A DNA stretch of 64,000 nt. Source: Salinibacter grassmerensis. GTDB taxonomy: Bacteria > Bacteroidota > Rhodothermia > Rhodothermales > Salinibacteraceae. The position numbers and the translations under genes were made by a program. Shown piece by piece: positions 4,776-34,247 of the stretch. The stretch's first letter is position 1. Every line of letters starts with the position of its first letter. The DNA lies in assembly GCF_947077765.1 (NCBI RefSeq), contig NZ_CAMTTF010000002.1, positions 1 to 64,000 on the forward strand, written 5' to 3'. The notes under the pieces are model-generated. The model worked only from the letters and a program-made list of their open reading frames with translations. It had not been told where the DNA came from and ran no database searches.

Positions 4776-5329
4776 CGGAGAGTGAAGAGCCGCTCGTCAA
4801 ACGGCATTTTCTCCTGCTTCTATCCCTGGCGCTTGGCGTGGCGGGCGTGGCCGGGGTAGGGGTGACGTACGCGCAGTACGACCGGGTCGGAGAGACGATT
4901 CAGTCGATCCCGTACGTCGGGCAGATTGCCCAGAATCCCGGGAAGGTCCCGTATGCCAATCAGATTGCGGGGATGATTCCCTTTGTGGGGGGCGGCGACT
5001 CCGGTGAGGATGGCGAGTCCAACAAGGTCGGCTCTCTGTCGAAGATGGAGGGGCTCGTGGTCAATCCCGCAGGCTCCCGGGGCAACCGGTATCTGGCCGT
5101 CAGTGTCGCCTTCGAGATGGGGGCGCCCACGGTGAAGAAGGAGATGAAGAAAAAGAAGGTCATCGTCAAAGACGCCGTGCTGCGGCTCCTGTCGGAGCAG
5201 ACGGTCGAAGAACTCTCCAATCCCAACCGACGCGACAGCCTGAAAGCATCCCTGCGCAACGAGGCGAACGGAATCCTCAGCAAGGGAGAGGTGGATCGGC
5301 TATACTTTACGGAATTCGTTTTGCAGTGA
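4718..5329 (+). CDS. fliL: FliL-like flagellar basal body protein
   Basis: A 203-residue single-pass membrane protein (TM about residues 29-50: FLLLLSLALGVAGVAGVG). Its C-terminal domain has the FliL pattern: LVVNPAGSRGNRYLAVSVAFEM, then LRLLSEQTVEEL, then ILSKGEVDRLYFTEFVLQ at the end. FliL associates with the stator and helps torque under load. Two starts are possible. ATG 4718 overlaps motB by 58 bp. GTG 4772 forms a GTGA overlap with the motB stop at 4773-4775, the usual translational coupling arrangement. The linker after the TM is longer than usual. Confidence 0.85.
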   Translation: MEQQQDDIDPSGVDGDGAVTESEEPLVKRHFLLLLSLALGVAGVAGVGVTYAQYDRVGETIQSIPYVGQIAQNPGKVPYANQIAGMIPFVGGGDSGEDGESNKVGSLSKMEGLVVNPAGSRGNRYLAVSVAFEMGAPTVKKEMKKKKVIVKDAVLRLLSEQTVEELSNPNRRDSLKASLRNEANGILSKGEVDRLYFTEFVLQ

Positions 5330-27174: not shown

Positions 27175-28152
27175 GTGAGCTTCGTCAATCCTCAATTGCT
27201 GTGGCTACTCCTCGCCGTGCCGGCGGTGGGGGCCTGGACGTGGTGGCGACGGCGGCGGACGACGGGGCTCCGCTACAGTGATGTGGGGCCGGTGCAGGGA
27301 GCGCCGATCGCGTGGACCGTGCGTCTCCGATGGCTTCCGGTAGGGCTCCGCATGGGGGCGCTCGCGCTTGGCGTTCTGGCTCTGGCCCGTCCCCAGACCG
27401 AAGAGACCACGCGGACCCGGACGGCCGAGGGCATCGACATCATGATGGTCCTCGACGCTTCCACGTCGATGCAGGCCGAGGACTTCCAGCCGACCCGCTT
27501 CGAGGCCGCACGTGAGGCAGCGGGGGCGTTCGTGGAGGGACGCGTGTCCGACCGGGTGGGTCTCATCGTGTTTGCTGCCGAGGCGTACACGCAGGCCCCC
27601 CTCACGCTCGATTATTCGTTCCTCCAGCGCATGCTGGATGACGTAGAGATTGGGGCCGTGGAGGACGGCACCGCCGTGGGAACGGCCCTGGCGACGGCTG
27701 TCAATCGGCTCAAGGACAGCGAAGCGGAGAGCAAGGTGGCCATTCTCCTTACCGACGGCCGCAACAACCGGGGCCAGATTGACCCCCGCACGGCGGCGGA
27801 GGTTGCCCAGACAATGGGTGTGCGGGTCTACGCGATCGGGGTCGGGTCGTCGGACGGCACGGACACCTCGGAAGAGCCGCTGTCTCGGGGCCCGCAAGAC
27901 GAGTCGGCGGGCGTGGACGCGGAGATGCTCCGGTCCGTCTCCACGTCGACCGGAGGACAGTACTTCTCCGCGACGAACCGCGACGCACTGGAGCGCATCT
28001 ACGCTGAGATCGACGCCATGGAGGCCACGCCGGTCGACGAGCGCGTCTACACGGACCGGACGGAGCGGTATCCGTGGTTCCTCCTGCCGGCCCTGGGACT
28101 CATCCTCCTGGAGGTCGGGCTCTCCGCGACCCTGTTTCGGCGTTTCCCGTAG
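27175..28152 (+). CDS. batA: BatA: membrane vWA-domain protein
   Basis: A 325-residue protein from GTG 27175. Architecture is TM, vWA, TM: the N-terminal PQLLWLLLAVPAVGAWTWW, a second TM near residue 65, and a C-terminal PWFLLPALGLILLEVGLSAT. The MIDAS is intact: DASTS (MMVLDASTSMQ), the Thr in EDGTAVGTAL, and the Asp in LLTDGRNN. BatA of Bacteroides contributes to aerotolerance. It is followed by batB with the same layout. Confidence 0.92.
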   Translation: MSFVNPQLLWLLLAVPAVGAWTWWRRRRTTGLRYSDVGPVQGAPIAWTVRLRWLPVGLRMGALALGVLALARPQTEETTRTRTAEGIDIMMVLDASTSMQAEDFQPTRFEAAREAAGAFVEGRVSDRVGLIVFAAEAYTQAPLTLDYSFLQRMLDDVEIGAVEDGTAVGTALATAVNRLKDSEAESKVAILLTDGRNNRGQIDPRTAAEVAQTMGVRVYAIGVGSSDGTDTSEEPLSRGPQDESAGVDAEMLRSVSTSTGGQYFSATNRDALERIYAEIDAMEATPVDERVYTDRTERYPWFLLPALGLILLEVGLSATLFRRFP

Positions 28153-28218
28153 CCCGCGTTGAGGGATCCGCGAGGCGCTCCCAAAGCCAGTGCTCCTTCC
28201 TGCAATTACACCCCAGAC

Positions 28219-29295
28219 ATGGATTGGCTCCACCCCGGATACATGTGGACGCTTCTCCTCGTCCCTTTGGCCGTGGGGATCTACGGCTGGGTGGTGCGTC
28301 GGCGCCGGGCGGACCGGGAGCGGTTTGGGCACCCGGCGACCGTGCAGCGGCTCGCGACGACCCTTCGCCCGCGCCGTCGGATGTGGAAGGCGGGCCTCGT
28401 GGTGGGGGCGCTACTTCTCGGGGCCGTCGCCCTGATGGGGCCGCGGTGGGGCACGGAGGTGCGCACGGTGGAGCGTCGAGGGCTCGATCTGGTCGTGGCG
28501 CTGGACGTCTCGGCGTCGATGCGGGCCCAAGACGTGCCCCCGAGCCGCCTCCGACGGGCGAAGAACGAGATCCGCACGCTGGTGGATGATCTGTCGGGCG
28601 ACCGGGTTGGGCTCGTCCTCTTTGCCGGAAGCGGGTTCGTGCAGTCGCCCCTCACGACCGACTACGGCGCCTTCCGTCTCTTCCTCGACGCAGCGGCGCC
28701 CGACCAGATCTCGACGCCGGGCACCGACGTGAGCATGGCCGTCGACGCGGGCCTGCAGGCCTTCGGCGCGTCCCGTCCGGCGGACGACACGACGGCGGCG
28801 CCCGACGAGACACGCCCCCGCGCGCTGCTCGTCGTCTCGGACGGGGAGAACCACGCCGGCGATCTCGACGCCGCCCGCCAGCGAGCAGAAGAGGCCGGGG
28901 TGACGCTCCTGACCGCCGGCGTTGGCACCGAGGACGGCGCCCGGATTCCGGTCTACGAAAACGGGCGGCGTGTCAACTACAAGCGGAACCGGCAGGGCGA
29001 GGTCGTGCGGAGCCGTCTGCGCGAGGCCCCCCTGACGAGCCTGGCCCGGTCCGGGGCGTACTTTCGCGTCGGGGCGGCCTCTAGTGCCCTCTCGGACGTG
29101 CCGGCGGCGCTCCGGCAGGTCGGGGCCACGACATACGGTGCCGAACGGTTTGCCGACTACGAGGAGATGTACCAGTGGCCCCTGGCGGCGGCCCTGTTGC
29201 TGCTACTCGCCGCAAGCGTCCTCCCGACGCGGCGCCGGGACGCCTCGGCCCTGGGTTTTGAGGGGTGGCTCGGCGGGGCTCGGGATGGCGAGTAG
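28219..29295 (+). CDS. batB: BatB: membrane vWA-domain protein
   Basis: A 358-residue paralogue of the preceding protein. The N-terminus is MDWLHPGYMWTLLLVPLAVG, then a TM near residue 60, a vWA domain with an intact MIDAS (ALDVSASMRAQD; STPGTDVSMAV; VVSDGENHAGD), and a C-terminal TM (PLAAALLLLLAASVLPTRR). ATG 28219 is chosen as it gives the conserved membrane N-terminus. It lies 66 bp after batA. Confidence 0.92.
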   Translation: MDWLHPGYMWTLLLVPLAVGIYGWVVRRRRADRERFGHPATVQRLATTLRPRRRMWKAGLVVGALLLGAVALMGPRWGTEVRTVERRGLDLVVALDVSASMRAQDVPPSRLRRAKNEIRTLVDDLSGDRVGLVLFAGSGFVQSPLTTDYGAFRLFLDAAAPDQISTPGTDVSMAVDAGLQAFGASRPADDTTAAPDETRPRALLVVSDGENHAGDLDAARQRAEEAGVTLLTAGVGTEDGARIPVYENGRRVNYKRNRQGEVVRSRLREAPLTSLARSGAYFRVGAASSALSDVPAALRQVGATTYGAERFADYEEMYQWPLAAALLLLLAASVLPTRRRDASALGFEGWLGGARDGE

Positions 29296-29366
29296 TCGCG
29301 TCGGAATCGACAGACGAGACCACACGTACAGCACCACCATTGCACTTGCAATGAGACCCTAAACGC

Positions 29367-30008
29367 ATGTTCGCCCGAGCGGCACTTATTTTGCTCCTCT
29401 TCGGTCTCCTCGGCGACAGCGGAGCGGGGCAGGGCCGAGACGGCAACGTCCTCTTCGAACAGGGACGGCACGTCGCCGCGGCGGAGACCTACCGGGCGGG
29501 CCTGGACGCCCTCGACGACACGACCGGCTCCGTGTACATGGGCCTCCAGAACAACCTGGGACTGGCCCTTCACCGCCAGGAGCGCTTCGGGGCCGCCCGA
29601 ACCGCGCTCCGGAAGGCCCGTCGCGCCGCCACGACCGACGAGGAGCGTGTCCGGGTGCTCTTCAACGCCGCCACCGTCGCGGCCGAGATGAAGGATCGAA
29701 CCGAGGCCCTGACTCACTACCGGACGGTGCTCCTCCTCGACCCCACGCACGAGGCCGCCCGGTTCAACTACGAGTACCTGAAGCGGCAGGCAGGCGAGGA
29801 CTCCGGGGGCGAACCGCCTACCATCGAGCCCTCATCCTTCGCGCAAACGCTGAAGGAAAGGGCGGACGCCCTGGTGGCGCAGACCCAGTACACCACCGCC
29901 GCGGCCCTGCTGCGGGACGGGATGCAGAAAGACTCGACGGTTCGCGCGTACCGCGACTTTGTCACCCGCATCGAAGAAATTGCGCAAATAGCCCGCTCGG
30001 ACTCGTAA
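29367..30008 (+). CDS. TPR-repeat protein of Bat operon
   Basis: A 213-residue protein with an N-terminal signal/TM (ARAALILLLFGLLGDSGAGQ). Three TPR-like helical pairs follow, including NNLGLALHRQERFGAARTAL, VLFNAATVAAEMKDRTEALT and YRTVLLLDPTHEAARFNYEY. It corresponds to the N-terminal TPR part of BatC-type proteins, here split from the next gene. The stop overlaps the next start (TAATG at 30006-30010), indicating coupled translation. Confidence 0.85.
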   Translation: MFARAALILLLFGLLGDSGAGQGRDGNVLFEQGRHVAAAETYRAGLDALDDTTGSVYMGLQNNLGLALHRQERFGAARTALRKARRAATTDEERVRVLFNAATVAAEMKDRTEALTHYRTVLLLDPTHEAARFNYEYLKRQAGEDSGGEPPTIEPSSFAQTLKERADALVAQTQYTTAAALLRDGMQKDSTVRAYRDFVTRIEEIAQIARSDS

Positions 30009-30610
30009 TGCTCATGCGTCTGTACGTGATTGGAGCCGTTTTGGGTCTACTGGTCGGGCTCGCGGGCACGCCGGCCCTGGGCCAATCCTCTGCCGACGCC
30101 CTGTTCCACGCCGCCGCGCAACGGTATGTGGCCGGCAATACAGAGGCCGCCCGGCGGGCGGTGGAAAAGGGGCTGGAAATGGCTCCGTCGGACCCCCGCT
30201 TGCGGGCCCTTCGGAAAAAACTGCAGCAGCAAGAGAAGCGGCGCGGGGGAGGACGACAGTCCCAGCAAGGCCAGCAGTCTCAGAGCCAGCGCGACCCTTC
30301 GAGGGGAAACGAGGGGGCGCAGGAGCAGTCCGACGCGGCGGAGCAGGCGTCTCGGTCCCAATCCGACGACCCGTCCCGTTCGGAGTCGTCCCGACCGGAG
30401 GGGGCGGACCCATCGTCGGCGGAATCGCCCGGGGAGAAGGCCCAGGGGCAACAGGGAGGCCGCCAAGCCGGCGCCCGCCGGTCGGCCCGTTCCCTGAGTC
30501 AGGCACAGGCGGCCCGCCTCCTCCAGGCCCTCGAAAACCAGGAGCAGAGGCTGTTGCGTGAGGTGCAGGGCGAGTCGGGGGAGCCCAACCGGGTCGAGAA
30601 AGACTGGTAA
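30008..30610 (+). CDS. batC: BatC-like TPR protein with C-terminal KDW
   Basis: A 200-residue protein. A signal peptide (LYVIGAVLGLLVGLAGTPALG) is followed by one TPR (ALFHAAAQRYVAGNTEAARR, AVEKGLEMAPSDP), then a long low-complexity Gln/Ser/Arg/Glu stretch (about residues 75-160). The C-terminal helix ALENQEQRLLREV ends in VEKDW. The terminal KDW is a recurrent ending in Bat TPR proteins. It is coupled to the preceding gene by a 1-bp overlap. The function is unknown, presumably a periplasmic scaffold. Confidence 0.8.
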   Translation: MLMRLYVIGAVLGLLVGLAGTPALGQSSADALFHAAAQRYVAGNTEAARRAVEKGLEMAPSDPRLRALRKKLQQQEKRRGGGRQSQQGQQSQSQRDPSRGNEGAQEQSDAAEQASRSQSDDPSRSESSRPEGADPSSAESPGEKAQGQQGGRQAGARRSARSLSQAQAARLLQALENQEQRLLREVQGESGEPNRVEKDW

Positions 30611-30694
30611 CGACGCAGACGATGTGGCCCACTGCCGGACGGGAGGCTGGCACCCGGGGCCGGAACAGTTTTCTCCATCAGTGGCGCACTGCCC

Positions 30695-32548
30695 ATGTGG
30701 ACCGCACAGTCCATGCCTATCCGAATCGCGGTCTTCGTGTTCGTGTTGGGGGCGGCGTGTGCCGGGATAAGCCGGGCCCAGTCCAGCGGTTCGGTGCGGG
30801 TCACGGCTGAGGCTGACCCTACGGACGTGAGGGTCGGCGAAACGGTCCAGTTGACGGTGCGGGTCGATGGGGTTCCCGCTACCGTCGTGCGGACGCCGGA
30901 TCCCCCCGCGACGACCAACCTTGCCCCCCGGCAGCGCACGCCCCGGACGAAACAGATCCGGGCATCGAGGGGCGGGCGGCTCCGTCAGGGGGTCGTCTTC
31001 TCGTGGCGGTTGCGCCCGCGGCAGCAGGGGGCCGCACTCATTCAGCCTCTCACCGTGGTGGTGCAGGGGAAAGAGTACACGACGGCCCCCATTCGCGTCC
31101 GAGTGTCCCCACGGACAGGAGAGCCCGATGCCCCAACGCTGACGCGCCCCGACGGCACGTCCCGGAATGAATCCCTGAACGCCCGGGATCTCTTCATCCG
31201 TGCATGGGCAACCAATGACTCGGCGTACCAGAATGAGCAGGTGGTTGTCGAGTACAGCCTGTTCTATCGCCCGGGCATCCGGCTCCGGCACAGCCGCCTG
31301 GCCGGCTCGTGGGACGCGCCGGGCTTCTGGCGCGAGGAGCTCAACGTGGCCGCCCGCCCCACCCCTCAGCGGCGGCGGGCCCACGGACAGGCGTACGAGA
31401 CCGTGGTCCTAAAGCGGGTGGCCCTGTTTCCCACGCGCCCGGGCACCCTGCAGGTCGATCCCCTCCGCATCGAGACGGAAGCGCAGGGAACGATGCGCAT
31501 GCGCGAGGGCGGCCCGTCCCTGCGAGGGCGCTTTGAGCCTGTGCAGCTTGCCTCCGAGGGGCTCTCGCTGGATGTGCGATCCCTTCCGTCGGGGGCGCCA
31601 CCCGCCTTCGACGGGGCCGTGGGGCAGTTTTCGATGACGGCCAGGACCGACGCGGACAGCACATCGGTGGGGGAGCCGGTGACCCTGATGGTAGAGGTGG
31701 AAGGCGCAGGAAATCTGGCGACGCTCTCTCCACCGTCCGTGGAGCCGCCCCCGGACATGGAGGTCTACGATCCATCTGTCGAGACGGACATCGAGCGCAA
31801 CGAGTCCCGAATCCGCGGTACCAAGACGTTTGCCTACACGCTCGTGCCTCAGTCCGCGGGGCGCTACGACCTTCCAGCCGTCACGCTCTCCTACTTCGAT
31901 CCGGACGCGGGACAGTACGAGACGCGCCAGGCCACGCCCTCAGCGCTACAGGTGTCGGGGGAGGCAGCCCCGCGAGCGGTGGGCCGGACGGGAGACGGCC
32001 TGCCGGTGGGCGACGTGGCGGAGCCGATGGCGGCGAGCGAGGCACAGTGGGCACGAACAGACCGGCGCCCTCTCTACCGCAGTCCCTGGGCGTACCTTGC
32101 CCTCTTGGTGCCAGCCCTGGTCGTCGGCGCCGGCGTCGCCTACCGGCGCTGGAGGTCCGAGGCTGCGCCGTCGTCGGACGAAACGGCTGCCCTCGATGAA
32201 GAAACGAACCGCCTCCAGGTGGCGCGTCGCCGCCTGCAAGCGGGGCCCGACGCGGCGTTCTATGATGCCGTGACGCGTGCGCTCCGGGCCTTCCTCGCGG
32301 AACGGCTGGGGCGGGACGGTCCCAACGACGTAACCCGGACGATACTGGATCGCCACCTGCCCCGACACGACGTTCCGCCGGACCTTCAGGACGCCCTCTA
32401 CGATGTGCTCGACCGCTGTGACGAGGCCCAGTACGCGCCCCGTGCCGGCTCCGCAGCGCCCGAAGACGTGCTGGCCAACGCCCACGCCGTGCTCCGGCGA
32501 CTCGACACCACACTACCACGGTCGGAGTCCACGGCCTCTCGCTCGTAG
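30695..32548 (+). CDS. batD: BatD: oxygen-tolerance membrane protein
   Basis: A 617-residue protein. A signal peptide (PIRIAVFVFVLGAACAGISR) leads to several beta-sandwich domains. Characteristic segments are VRVTAEADPTDVRVGETVQL, VVEYSLFYRPGIRLR, SVGEPVTLMVEVEGAGNLAT, and TKTFAYTLVPQSAGRYDLPA followed by SYFDPDAGQYE. A TM lies near residue 462, and a helical C-terminal domain has FYDAVTRALRAFLAERLG. That last segment is shared with the BatD-like protein at 25221-26255. It acts in the periplasm with BatA/B in current models. Confidence 0.9.
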   Translation: MWTAQSMPIRIAVFVFVLGAACAGISRAQSSGSVRVTAEADPTDVRVGETVQLTVRVDGVPATVVRTPDPPATTNLAPRQRTPRTKQIRASRGGRLRQGVVFSWRLRPRQQGAALIQPLTVVVQGKEYTTAPIRVRVSPRTGEPDAPTLTRPDGTSRNESLNARDLFIRAWATNDSAYQNEQVVVEYSLFYRPGIRLRHSRLAGSWDAPGFWREELNVAARPTPQRRRAHGQAYETVVLKRVALFPTRPGTLQVDPLRIETEAQGTMRMREGGPSLRGRFEPVQLASEGLSLDVRSLPSGAPPAFDGAVGQFSMTARTDADSTSVGEPVTLMVEVEGAGNLATLSPPSVEPPPDMEVYDPSVETDIERNESRIRGTKTFAYTLVPQSAGRYDLPAVTLSYFDPDAGQYETRQATPSALQVSGEAAPRAVGRTGDGLPVGDVAEPMAASEAQWARTDRRPLYRSPWAYLALLVPALVVGAGVAYRRWRSEAAPSSDETAALDEETNRLQVARRRLQAGPDAAFYDAVTRALRAFLAERLGRDGPNDVTRTILDRHLPRHDVPPDLQDALYDVLDRCDEAQYAPRAGSAAPEDVLANAHAVLRRLDTTLPRSESTASRS

Positions 32549-32583
32549 CCCCACCGTCGTCCCTGGCTAAGACCGCCCCTCCC

Positions 32584-33333
32584 ATGCGCCTTCTCGCGGT
32601 TGTTCTCGGCGGACTTGGATTGATCATCGTCTCCCCGGTCTGCGCGCAGCCGTCGTCTGTCTCCCAACAATTTGAGGCCGCCAACGAGGCCTACGCCCAG
32701 GGCCAGTACGAGGACGCCGTAGGGGAATACCGGGCCGTTCTCGACGCCGGTCACGAGAGCGCAGCGCTCTACCACAACTTGGGCAACGCCTTCGTGCGCC
32801 TCGACCGCACGGGGCCGGCCGTCTGGGCCTACGAACGAGGACGTCGCCTCCAGCCTAGGAACCCGCGCCTGCAGCATAACCTGGAATACGTCCGTCGGCG
32901 TGCCGAGCTTCCGCGGCGTGGGGGGACGTCCAGTGGCCTCGCGGCCCTCGTGGTGGGATGGTCGCCCCTGCTGCTGTTCAGCATTGGGGTGCTGGCCCTG
33001 TGTGCCGGAGGGCTCGGGGCCGTGGTGCGGTGGGGCACGAGCCGGGCGGGCGCATGGCGGGGCCCAGCCATAAGGGGGCTGATCGGGGGGGGAGTGCTGC
33101 TCGCCGCCATTGCGCTAGGCACTTCGTACGTGCAGGCTCAAGAGCGTCGGGCCGTCGTGGTGGATGAGGGGGCGGCGCTCCGCTCCGCTCCCGCCGACAC
33201 GGCGGCCTCCGATTCGACCCTTCGTTCGGGGACGCTCGTGAAGCCCGAGGCCGAGCGAAATGGGTGGACCCGCGTACGGCTTGGGGAGCGAACCGAGGGC
33301 TGGATTGCGCCCGGTACGCTGGCGGAAATATAA
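32584..33333 (+). CDS. batE: BatE-like TPR / SH3 protein
   Basis: A 249-residue protein. A signal peptide is followed by TPRs (QQFEAANEAYAQGQYEDAVG, YHNLGNAFVRLDRTGPAVWA, YERGRRLQPRNPRLQHNLEY), two TM segments (LLLFSIGVLALCAGGLGAVV and GLIGGGVLLAAIALGTSYV), and a C-terminal SH3b domain (VVVDEGAALRSAPADTA, WTRVRLGERTEGWIAPGTLA). This matches the BatE architecture and closes the operon. The SH3b domain could bind cell wall. Confidence 0.88.
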   Translation: MRLLAVVLGGLGLIIVSPVCAQPSSVSQQFEAANEAYAQGQYEDAVGEYRAVLDAGHESAALYHNLGNAFVRLDRTGPAVWAYERGRRLQPRNPRLQHNLEYVRRRAELPRRGGTSSGLAALVVGWSPLLLFSIGVLALCAGGLGAVVRWGTSRAGAWRGPAIRGLIGGGVLLAAIALGTSYVQAQERRAVVVDEGAALRSAPADTAASDSTLRSGTLVKPEAERNGWTRVRLGERTEGWIAPGTLAEI

Positions 33334-33461: not shown

Positions 33462-34247
33462 ATGCCGACGGGCCACTTTGCCATTGGCGACCTTTCTTTC
33501 TCGTTCGAGGGCTCCCTCGAGGAACTGGCGCACTGCCAGGAGATTGTCCGCGAAATCGAGCGCGCGGAGCATCGGCTTCGTCGGGCGTCGGGGGCGGAAG
33601 AGGTGGTCGTGATCTATGATCAGGACCTCGAAGGCGAGCGCGGCACGTTCGACAAGATGCGGCTCCGCGCGTACGACGACGAGCACAACTACACGCTCGA
33701 CCTGGGGGTGACGGACACCAATCCGCTCGGCATTTACGTCGGGTACGATCAGAACATCGAGGTTTACAACCGGGACACCGGAGAGACGTGGCAGATTACC
33801 CCGGAGGGCGACCCGGTCAAATCGGATGAGGACGGGTCCGGGGCGGACCCGCGAGAGGAGCCGACCGCCCGAGATGCGGACACGTCGCGGCGGCCCTCTT
33901 CTTCCTCTACACGATCCACGGAGCCGGCATCGTCCGAGGGGCCGTCCCAGGCTGAAATTGACCGGGCCGCGGAGGTGCTTGTCAACCGCGTGCGACAACA
34001 GCCGCCCGAACAACGGGTGGGCGATACCACCATTCCGGATGGGCCGCTCGGGGAGAAGCTCATCGGGTTCGCCACGTACTGTGGGCGCGGCGAGGGGTAC
34101 CTAAACCGCGTGCTCGACGTGAAGAGCGTCTCCGCGGTCGATGCGTTGACCGTGGGGCAGGTGCCGGACGTGCTCGCCATGATCAAGGACGAAGAGACGC
34201 TTCGCCAGAACGAGAGCTTCGAGCCGGATAATGACCTTCCCTTCTAA
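33462..34247 (+). CDS. Hypothetical protein with SSB-like acidic C-terminal tip
   Basis: A 261-residue protein of unknown family. The N-terminal about 120 residues are a compact alpha/beta domain (FAIGDLSFSFEGSLEELAHC; RLRAYDDEHNYTLDLGVTDT; IYVGYDQNIEVYNRDTGETW). A disordered acidic/Ser linker (about 125-165) follows, then a helical C-terminal domain (EIDRAAEVLVNRVRQQPPEQ ... ALTVGQVPDVLAMIKDEE). The protein ends EPDNDLPF, strikingly like the DDDIPF tip by which SSB recruits replication and repair proteins. No OB fold is recognised, so it is not obviously an SSB. A role in DNA transactions is inference. It is convergent with the LysR gene. Confidence 0.75.
   Translation: MPTGHFAIGDLSFSFEGSLEELAHCQEIVREIERAEHRLRRASGAEEVVVIYDQDLEGERGTFDKMRLRAYDDEHNYTLDLGVTDTNPLGIYVGYDQNIEVYNRDTGETWQITPEGDPVKSDEDGSGADPREEPTARDADTSRRPSSSSTRSTEPASSEGPSQAEIDRAAEVLVNRVRQQPPEQRVGDTTIPDGPLGEKLIGFATYCGRGEGYLNRVLDVKSVSAVDALTVGQVPDVLAMIKDEETLRQNESFEPDNDLPF

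Follow-up and report, generated by a model that had tools for sequence, protein, structure and literature searches.

We identified in Salinibacter grassmerensis a protein of 261 amino acids, designated hereafter as P0001, whose C-terminal tip is an almost exact copy of the tail of the host SSBs and whose two domains each have relatives in different Salinibacter phages. P0001 is probably a phage recombination-slot protein that has become fixed in the chromosome, and its SSB-type tip would dock on SSB partners of the RecO, PriA and RecQ class. Recruitment through the SSB tail is generally regarded as private to SSB. A conserved non-SSB cellular protein with the nine-residue SSB signal, together with phage relatives that bear it or not depending on the presence of an ssb gene, would make the tail as a portable recruitment module directly testable. 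The sequence-orphan family to which P0001 belongs may represent annealing proteins or recombination mediators of a new type, and its relatives in the cultured S. ruber phages M1EM-1 and M8CR30-2 are open to study now.

The gene and its SSB-type tip

The window (the whole stretch of 64,000 nucleotides that was analysed) contains the complete P0001 gene (Table 1), the translation of which ends ...NESFEPDNDLPF, with ESFEPDNDLPF as the last residues before the stop. The ATG start is supported by the sequence MPTGHF, common to the starts of all orthologues at that point. The original prediction of an SSB-like tip was confirmed by comparison with the host genome, which contains two SSB genes, both ending TFEPDDDLPF; the tip of P0001 is identical to the host SSB tail at eight of nine positions. 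The acidic tip of E. coli SSB is likewise nine residues long (PMC7145534). The conserved acidic ending of the SSB family, D-Phi-PF followed by a stop, has a single occurrence in the window, where shuffles gave an expectation of 0.06, and of the 331 window ORFs with 100 or more codons none but the P0001 gene ends D.PF. A scan of the whole-genome DNA for D-Phi-PF plus stop returned eight matches. Three of these carry TGG in place of the stop, and the five that truly terminate there comprise the two SSB genes, the P0001 gene, an ORF of 21 aa and a reading frame that is implausible, leaving only the two SSBs and P0001 as credible endings of this type in the genome. Given this rarity, both genome-wide and against the shuffles, the tip is to be regarded as an almost exact copy of the host SSB tail and as more than an acidic ending.

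P0001 shares with the Salinibacter SSB (PF00436) this tip and a layout of domain, linker and tip, but differs from it in having no OB-fold SSB domain by Pfam and in carrying an extra helical domain before the tip. No match to SSB was obtained in a Pfam scan at E values up to 10, and no family, including those of single-strand annealing proteins (SSAPs), was matched in Pfam or PHROGs. Profile searches against PDB sequences gave no match for the C-domain and none above chance level for the whole protein.

Table 1. Positions of the P0001 gene, its parts and related features (window positions unless a locus is given)
Feature	Position	Strand	Remarks
Complete gene, 261 aa	33462..34247	+	ATG start, TAA stop; mosaic of two phage recombination-slot proteins plus SSB tip
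N-domain, residues 1-118	33462..33815	+	predicted beta-beta-alpha-beta(6)
Linker, about residues 119-160	33816..33941	+	variable, disordered, mildly acidic
C-domain, about residues 161-250	33942..34211	+	five predicted helices, pLDDT 80-92
SSB-type C-terminal tip FEPDNDLPF, residues 253-261	34218..34244	+	host SSBs: FEPDDDLPF
batA-E-like operon	27175-33333		aerotolerance type
BatE-like TPR/SH3 protein	32584..33333	+	upstream neighbour; context only
N-domain homologue, M1EM-1	L156:6998-7699		annotated 'structural protein'
N-domain homologue, M8CR30-4	L157:6998-7690		annotated 'structural protein'
N-domain homologue, M8CR30-2	L158:2998-3690		annotated 'structural protein'
47-aa ORF, M1EM-1	L156:6858-7001		between exonuclease VIII and slot protein
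47-aa ORF, metagenomic contig L161	about 4861-4986		between exonuclease VIII and slot protein
306-aa protein, prophage of genome G001	L170:5720-6637	-	follows exonuclease VIII
DnaB-like helicase, S. altiplanensis prophage	L010:7880-9346		ends STQDPPF
gp32-type SSB, metagenomic phage	L057:8653-9498		PF08804 2e-12, tail FEADGDLPF

Predicted structure and conservation in Salinibacter

An AlphaFold2 model of P0001 (mean pLDDT 67) predicted an N-domain (residues 1-118) of two strands, a long helix and six strands at modest confidence (pLDDT about 70), a disordered linker (about 122-158), a helical C-domain (about 163-250) and a disordered tail. An OB fold was not evident in this model, whose N-domain is of modest confidence, and no Pfam or PHROG family covered it; the earlier view that the N-terminal domain has no recognised OB fold therefore holds as far as tested. 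The same source had placed the tip after an acidic linker, which was borne out in part: the linker is mildly acidic (net charge -4), but a conserved five-helix domain separates it from the tip. The net charge of the N-domain is -16; proteins of halophiles, including those of Salinibacter, are acidic in general.

With respect to the RAD52-superfamily fold of SSAP DNA-binding domains, the best PDB match of the N-domain model, itself of modest confidence, was Ugi with a Z score of 5.4, which lies within the range of common arrangements, and a Ugi-like fold was set aside. The C-domain was modelled twice, in different proteins, and showed weak structural likeness to the C-terminal part of 80alpha Sak (Z 3.8) and to the C-terminal domain of Red-beta (Z 3.4, rmsd 2.9 over 55 residues). 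Homology to either domain was not retained, as profile comparison gave no support. A scan for Sak relatives recovered near-identical sequences only.

The P0001 gene is carried by six of 13 Salinibacter genomes, and the orthologue in S. altiplanensis AN15 is 83% identical. The original prediction had been staked beforehand on conservation of the last residues among orthologues, and the tip, FEPD[N/T/S/D]DLPF, is kept in all six while the linker drifts. Among the Salinibacter orthologues, dN/dS was about 0.05-0.14 for the N-domain and 0.07-0.30 for the C-domain; it was about 0.4-0.8 for the linker, which has also undergone insertions and deletions, and in the tip codons synonymous change is saturated with one residue only varying. 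These comparisons indicate that the gene is real and under purifying selection, strong outside the linker.

Gene order, with batE followed by the P0001 gene, is kept at all six orthologous loci, and the batA-E-like operon is conserved upstream at each of them. Three genomes without the P0001 gene have the batE locus, from which the gene is absent. An expected synteny with recombination genes did not hold for the chromosomal gene, which follows the batA-E operon instead; it is the phage homologues, for the N-domain and the C-domain alike, that are encoded beside a recombination exonuclease and/or ssb. In the genome that includes the window, neither an exonuclease VIII nor any match to the RecT model was found, so the chromosomal P0001 must work with other partners. 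The host SSB tail is FEPDDDLPF in four genomes that have the P0001 gene (L035, L037, L041 and L043) and FEPDDELPF in four that lack it (L038, L040, L042 and L045). A link between the gene and the type of host tail (DDDLPF or DDELPF) was considered and dropped, being confounded by phylogeny, which may be its only source.

Relatives of both domains in Salinibacter phages

A protein encoded by the S. ruber phages M1EM-1 (gp27), M8CR30-2 and M8CR30-4 matches the N-domain of P0001 with 41-43% identity (E 2e-24). Gene order in these three phages runs from exonuclease VIII through a 47-aa ORF and the N-domain homologue to a true SSB, with DnaN and primase later, and in M1EM-1 the exonuclease, 47-aa ORF and homologue genes overlap by 4 bases each. 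The metagenomic contig L161 encodes, in the same order as M1EM-1, a homologue 59% identical to the phage protein; the 47-aa ORF is conserved between exonuclease VIII and the slot protein. In all four, the ssb gene beside the gp27-type gene encodes the tail DFxPDDELPF. In cassettes of the type exonuclease VIII-X-SSB, X is normally an SSAP or a recombination mediator, and the genes annotated as 'structural protein' between exonuclease VIII and SSB likely encode recombination proteins, with misannotation possible; no SSAP match was obtained for the phage homologues in Pfam or PHROGs. Like P0001, the Holosalinivirus gp27-type protein consists of the homologous N-domain, a linker and a small C-terminal domain; unlike P0001, it ends ...EEERELPLQ or similar, has no SSB tip and is followed by a true ssb gene. 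Homology between the two C-domains was rejected, no relation being detectable by profile.

The C-domain and tip of P0001 recur in P0002, encoded in a S. altiplanensis prophage (39% identical, hhalign E 1.8e-19), and in P0003 of phage contig L054 (43% identical, hhalign E 1.4e-20). The P0002 gene lies directly after exonuclease VIII (phrog_412 3.5e-59; DUF3799 3.8e-20) and upstream of a replication initiator and a DnaB-like helicase, the terminus of which is faintly SSB-tip-like. The P0003 gene is upstream of a DnaD-like initiator and a DnaC-like loader, and no exonuclease VIII was found within 17 kb of contig. In contrast to P0001, P0002 and P0003 are phage-encoded, precede replication genes and have N-domains without detectable relation to that of P0001; homology between these N-domains appeared plausible by eye and was discarded, the hhalign scores falling within those of shuffled controls. 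No relatives of the P0001 C-domain outside Salinibacter were found in 395 genomes of the phylum, nor any of P0002 or P0006 in 244 genomes of the class. In a third prophage, located in a Salinibacter genome without the P0001 gene (G001), the gene after exonuclease VIII encodes a 306-aa protein that combines an N-domain of the P0003 type (50%) with an unrelated C-domain and ends in the tip FEADEELPF. The phage homologues are encoded either immediately behind exonuclease VIII or between it and SSB, which lends support to the earlier guess of a single-strand-binding protein or recombination mediator, and the interpretation given with that guess is partly supported overall.

The slot protein has no tip where an ssb gene follows (M1EM-1, M8CR30-2, M8CR30-4 and L161) and has a tip where no ssb gene was found (the P0002 and P0003 records and G001), a pattern seen in a small sample of about two independent cases against three. 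No SSB-fold protein is present in the P0002 and P0003 phage records, which may be fragments, and no ssb lies near the G001 slot gene, the sole SSB of G001 being on another contig. The slot family would comprise at least three N-domain and three C-domain types, none of them in Pfam or PHROGs. The chances are even that Salinibacter phages fill the position behind exonuclease VIII with new, mix-and-match recombination proteins, to which an SSB tail is added if the phage has no ssb gene, and that the Salinibacter chromosome took up one of these chimeras and has retained it as a second carrier, other than SSB, of the SSB interaction code.

Proposed function and rival explanations

The phage homologues of P0001 resemble SSAPs (RecT/Red-beta, Erf and Rad52-like Sak) in their cassette place after a DUF3799 exonuclease and/or before ssb, and the small helical C-terminal domain predicted for P0001 bears a weak structural likeness to theirs, but no sequence relation of P0001 to Red-beta or Sak was found. 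DUF3799-type exonucleases co-occur with RecT SSAPs in phages, and phage recombination modules are defined by SSAP-SSB gene pairs (PMC8093625); the SSAP Sak4 depends on the six C-terminal residues of its SSB (PMC5928155), and the C-terminal domain of Red-beta binds both lambda exonuclease and SSB (PMC8303780). In view of such exonuclease-SSAP-SSB modules, and of SSAPs and mediators that bind SSB tails, P0001 is best read as a chromosomally fixed slot protein with a docking tip of its own. Its N-domain is of the family found in exonuclease VIII-X-SSB cassettes, and its helical C-domain and tip would be derived from, or shared with, other Salinibacter phage proteins. The N-domain would engage a recombination substrate, which may be ssDNA or an intermediate of annealing or replication. 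The flexible tip would dock in the conserved SSB-tail pocket of host RecO, PriA, RecQ or other SSB partners, which could then be brought to the substrate, or shared there, with no need for SSB itself. Where a phage has no ssb gene, the tip of the slot protein would substitute for the phage SSB tail, and the chromosomal P0001, which has no exonuclease VIII partner, would act with host RecF-pathway or replication-restart proteins.

Several observations count against the slot-protein reading, including the N-domain without an SSAP family match in a genome without a RecT match, the annotation of the phage homologues, and the position of the chromosomal gene next to bat genes where exonuclease VIII is missing. 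The C-domain likeness to SSAPs is weak (Z 3.4-3.8) and unseen by profile comparison, and the N-domain is strongly negative, though halophile proteins generally are acidic. To our knowledge, known SSAPs bind SSB tails and, unlike P0001, carry none.

Alternatively, P0001 may be an SSB mimic competing for SSB partners. An unlikely reading is that of a host interference protein, a domesticated phage copy acting as a dominant-negative or decoy, whose N-domain would poison phage exonuclease VIII or annealing complexes or whose tip would occupy SSB partners. The phages with the N-domain homologue are virulent and infect S. ruber, the host copy has no exonuclease partner, and phage SSAPs are known interference targets (PMC11846896); however, the low dN/dS of the N-domain and vertical inheritance beside batE look like housekeeping and not like an arms race, and no defence genes adjoin the P0001 gene among the genes checked. 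It is also improbable that the whole of P0001 is an SSB analogue, in which a new, non-OB ssDNA-binding N-domain, a linker and a tip would follow the logic of gp32 or gp2.5. Such an analogue would fit the SSB-like architecture with its variable linker, the presence of tips exactly where no ssb was found and the lack of SSB-fold proteins in the P0002 and P0003 records, but the host already has two SSBs, a helical domain is added ahead of the tip, and the Holosalinivirus N-domain protein coexists with an SSB, which argues that the N-domain is no simple SSB replacement.

A virion structural or internal protein, with the tip in another role, is very unlikely despite the 'structural protein' annotations in M1EM-1, M8CR30-2 and M8CR30-4: the homologue lies between exonuclease VIII and SSB, with 4-base overlaps tying it to the exonuclease operon, far from tail genes, and the chromosomal copies have an SSB tip and no virion genes. 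That the tip is a chance acidic ending, as the general acidity of Salinibacter proteins might suggest, is scarcely credible and was refuted at the level of sequence by the window shuffles, the genome-wide scan and conservation; the tip is confined to the SSBs and P0001 in the genome, and phage relatives whose N- and C-domains differ carry it as well. A scan of IMG/VR for proteins ending FE[P/A]DxDLPF returned exactly four, namely an OB-fold SSB, a gp32-type SSB, P0002 and P0003, and thus grouped the P0001 family independently with ssDNA-binding proteins.
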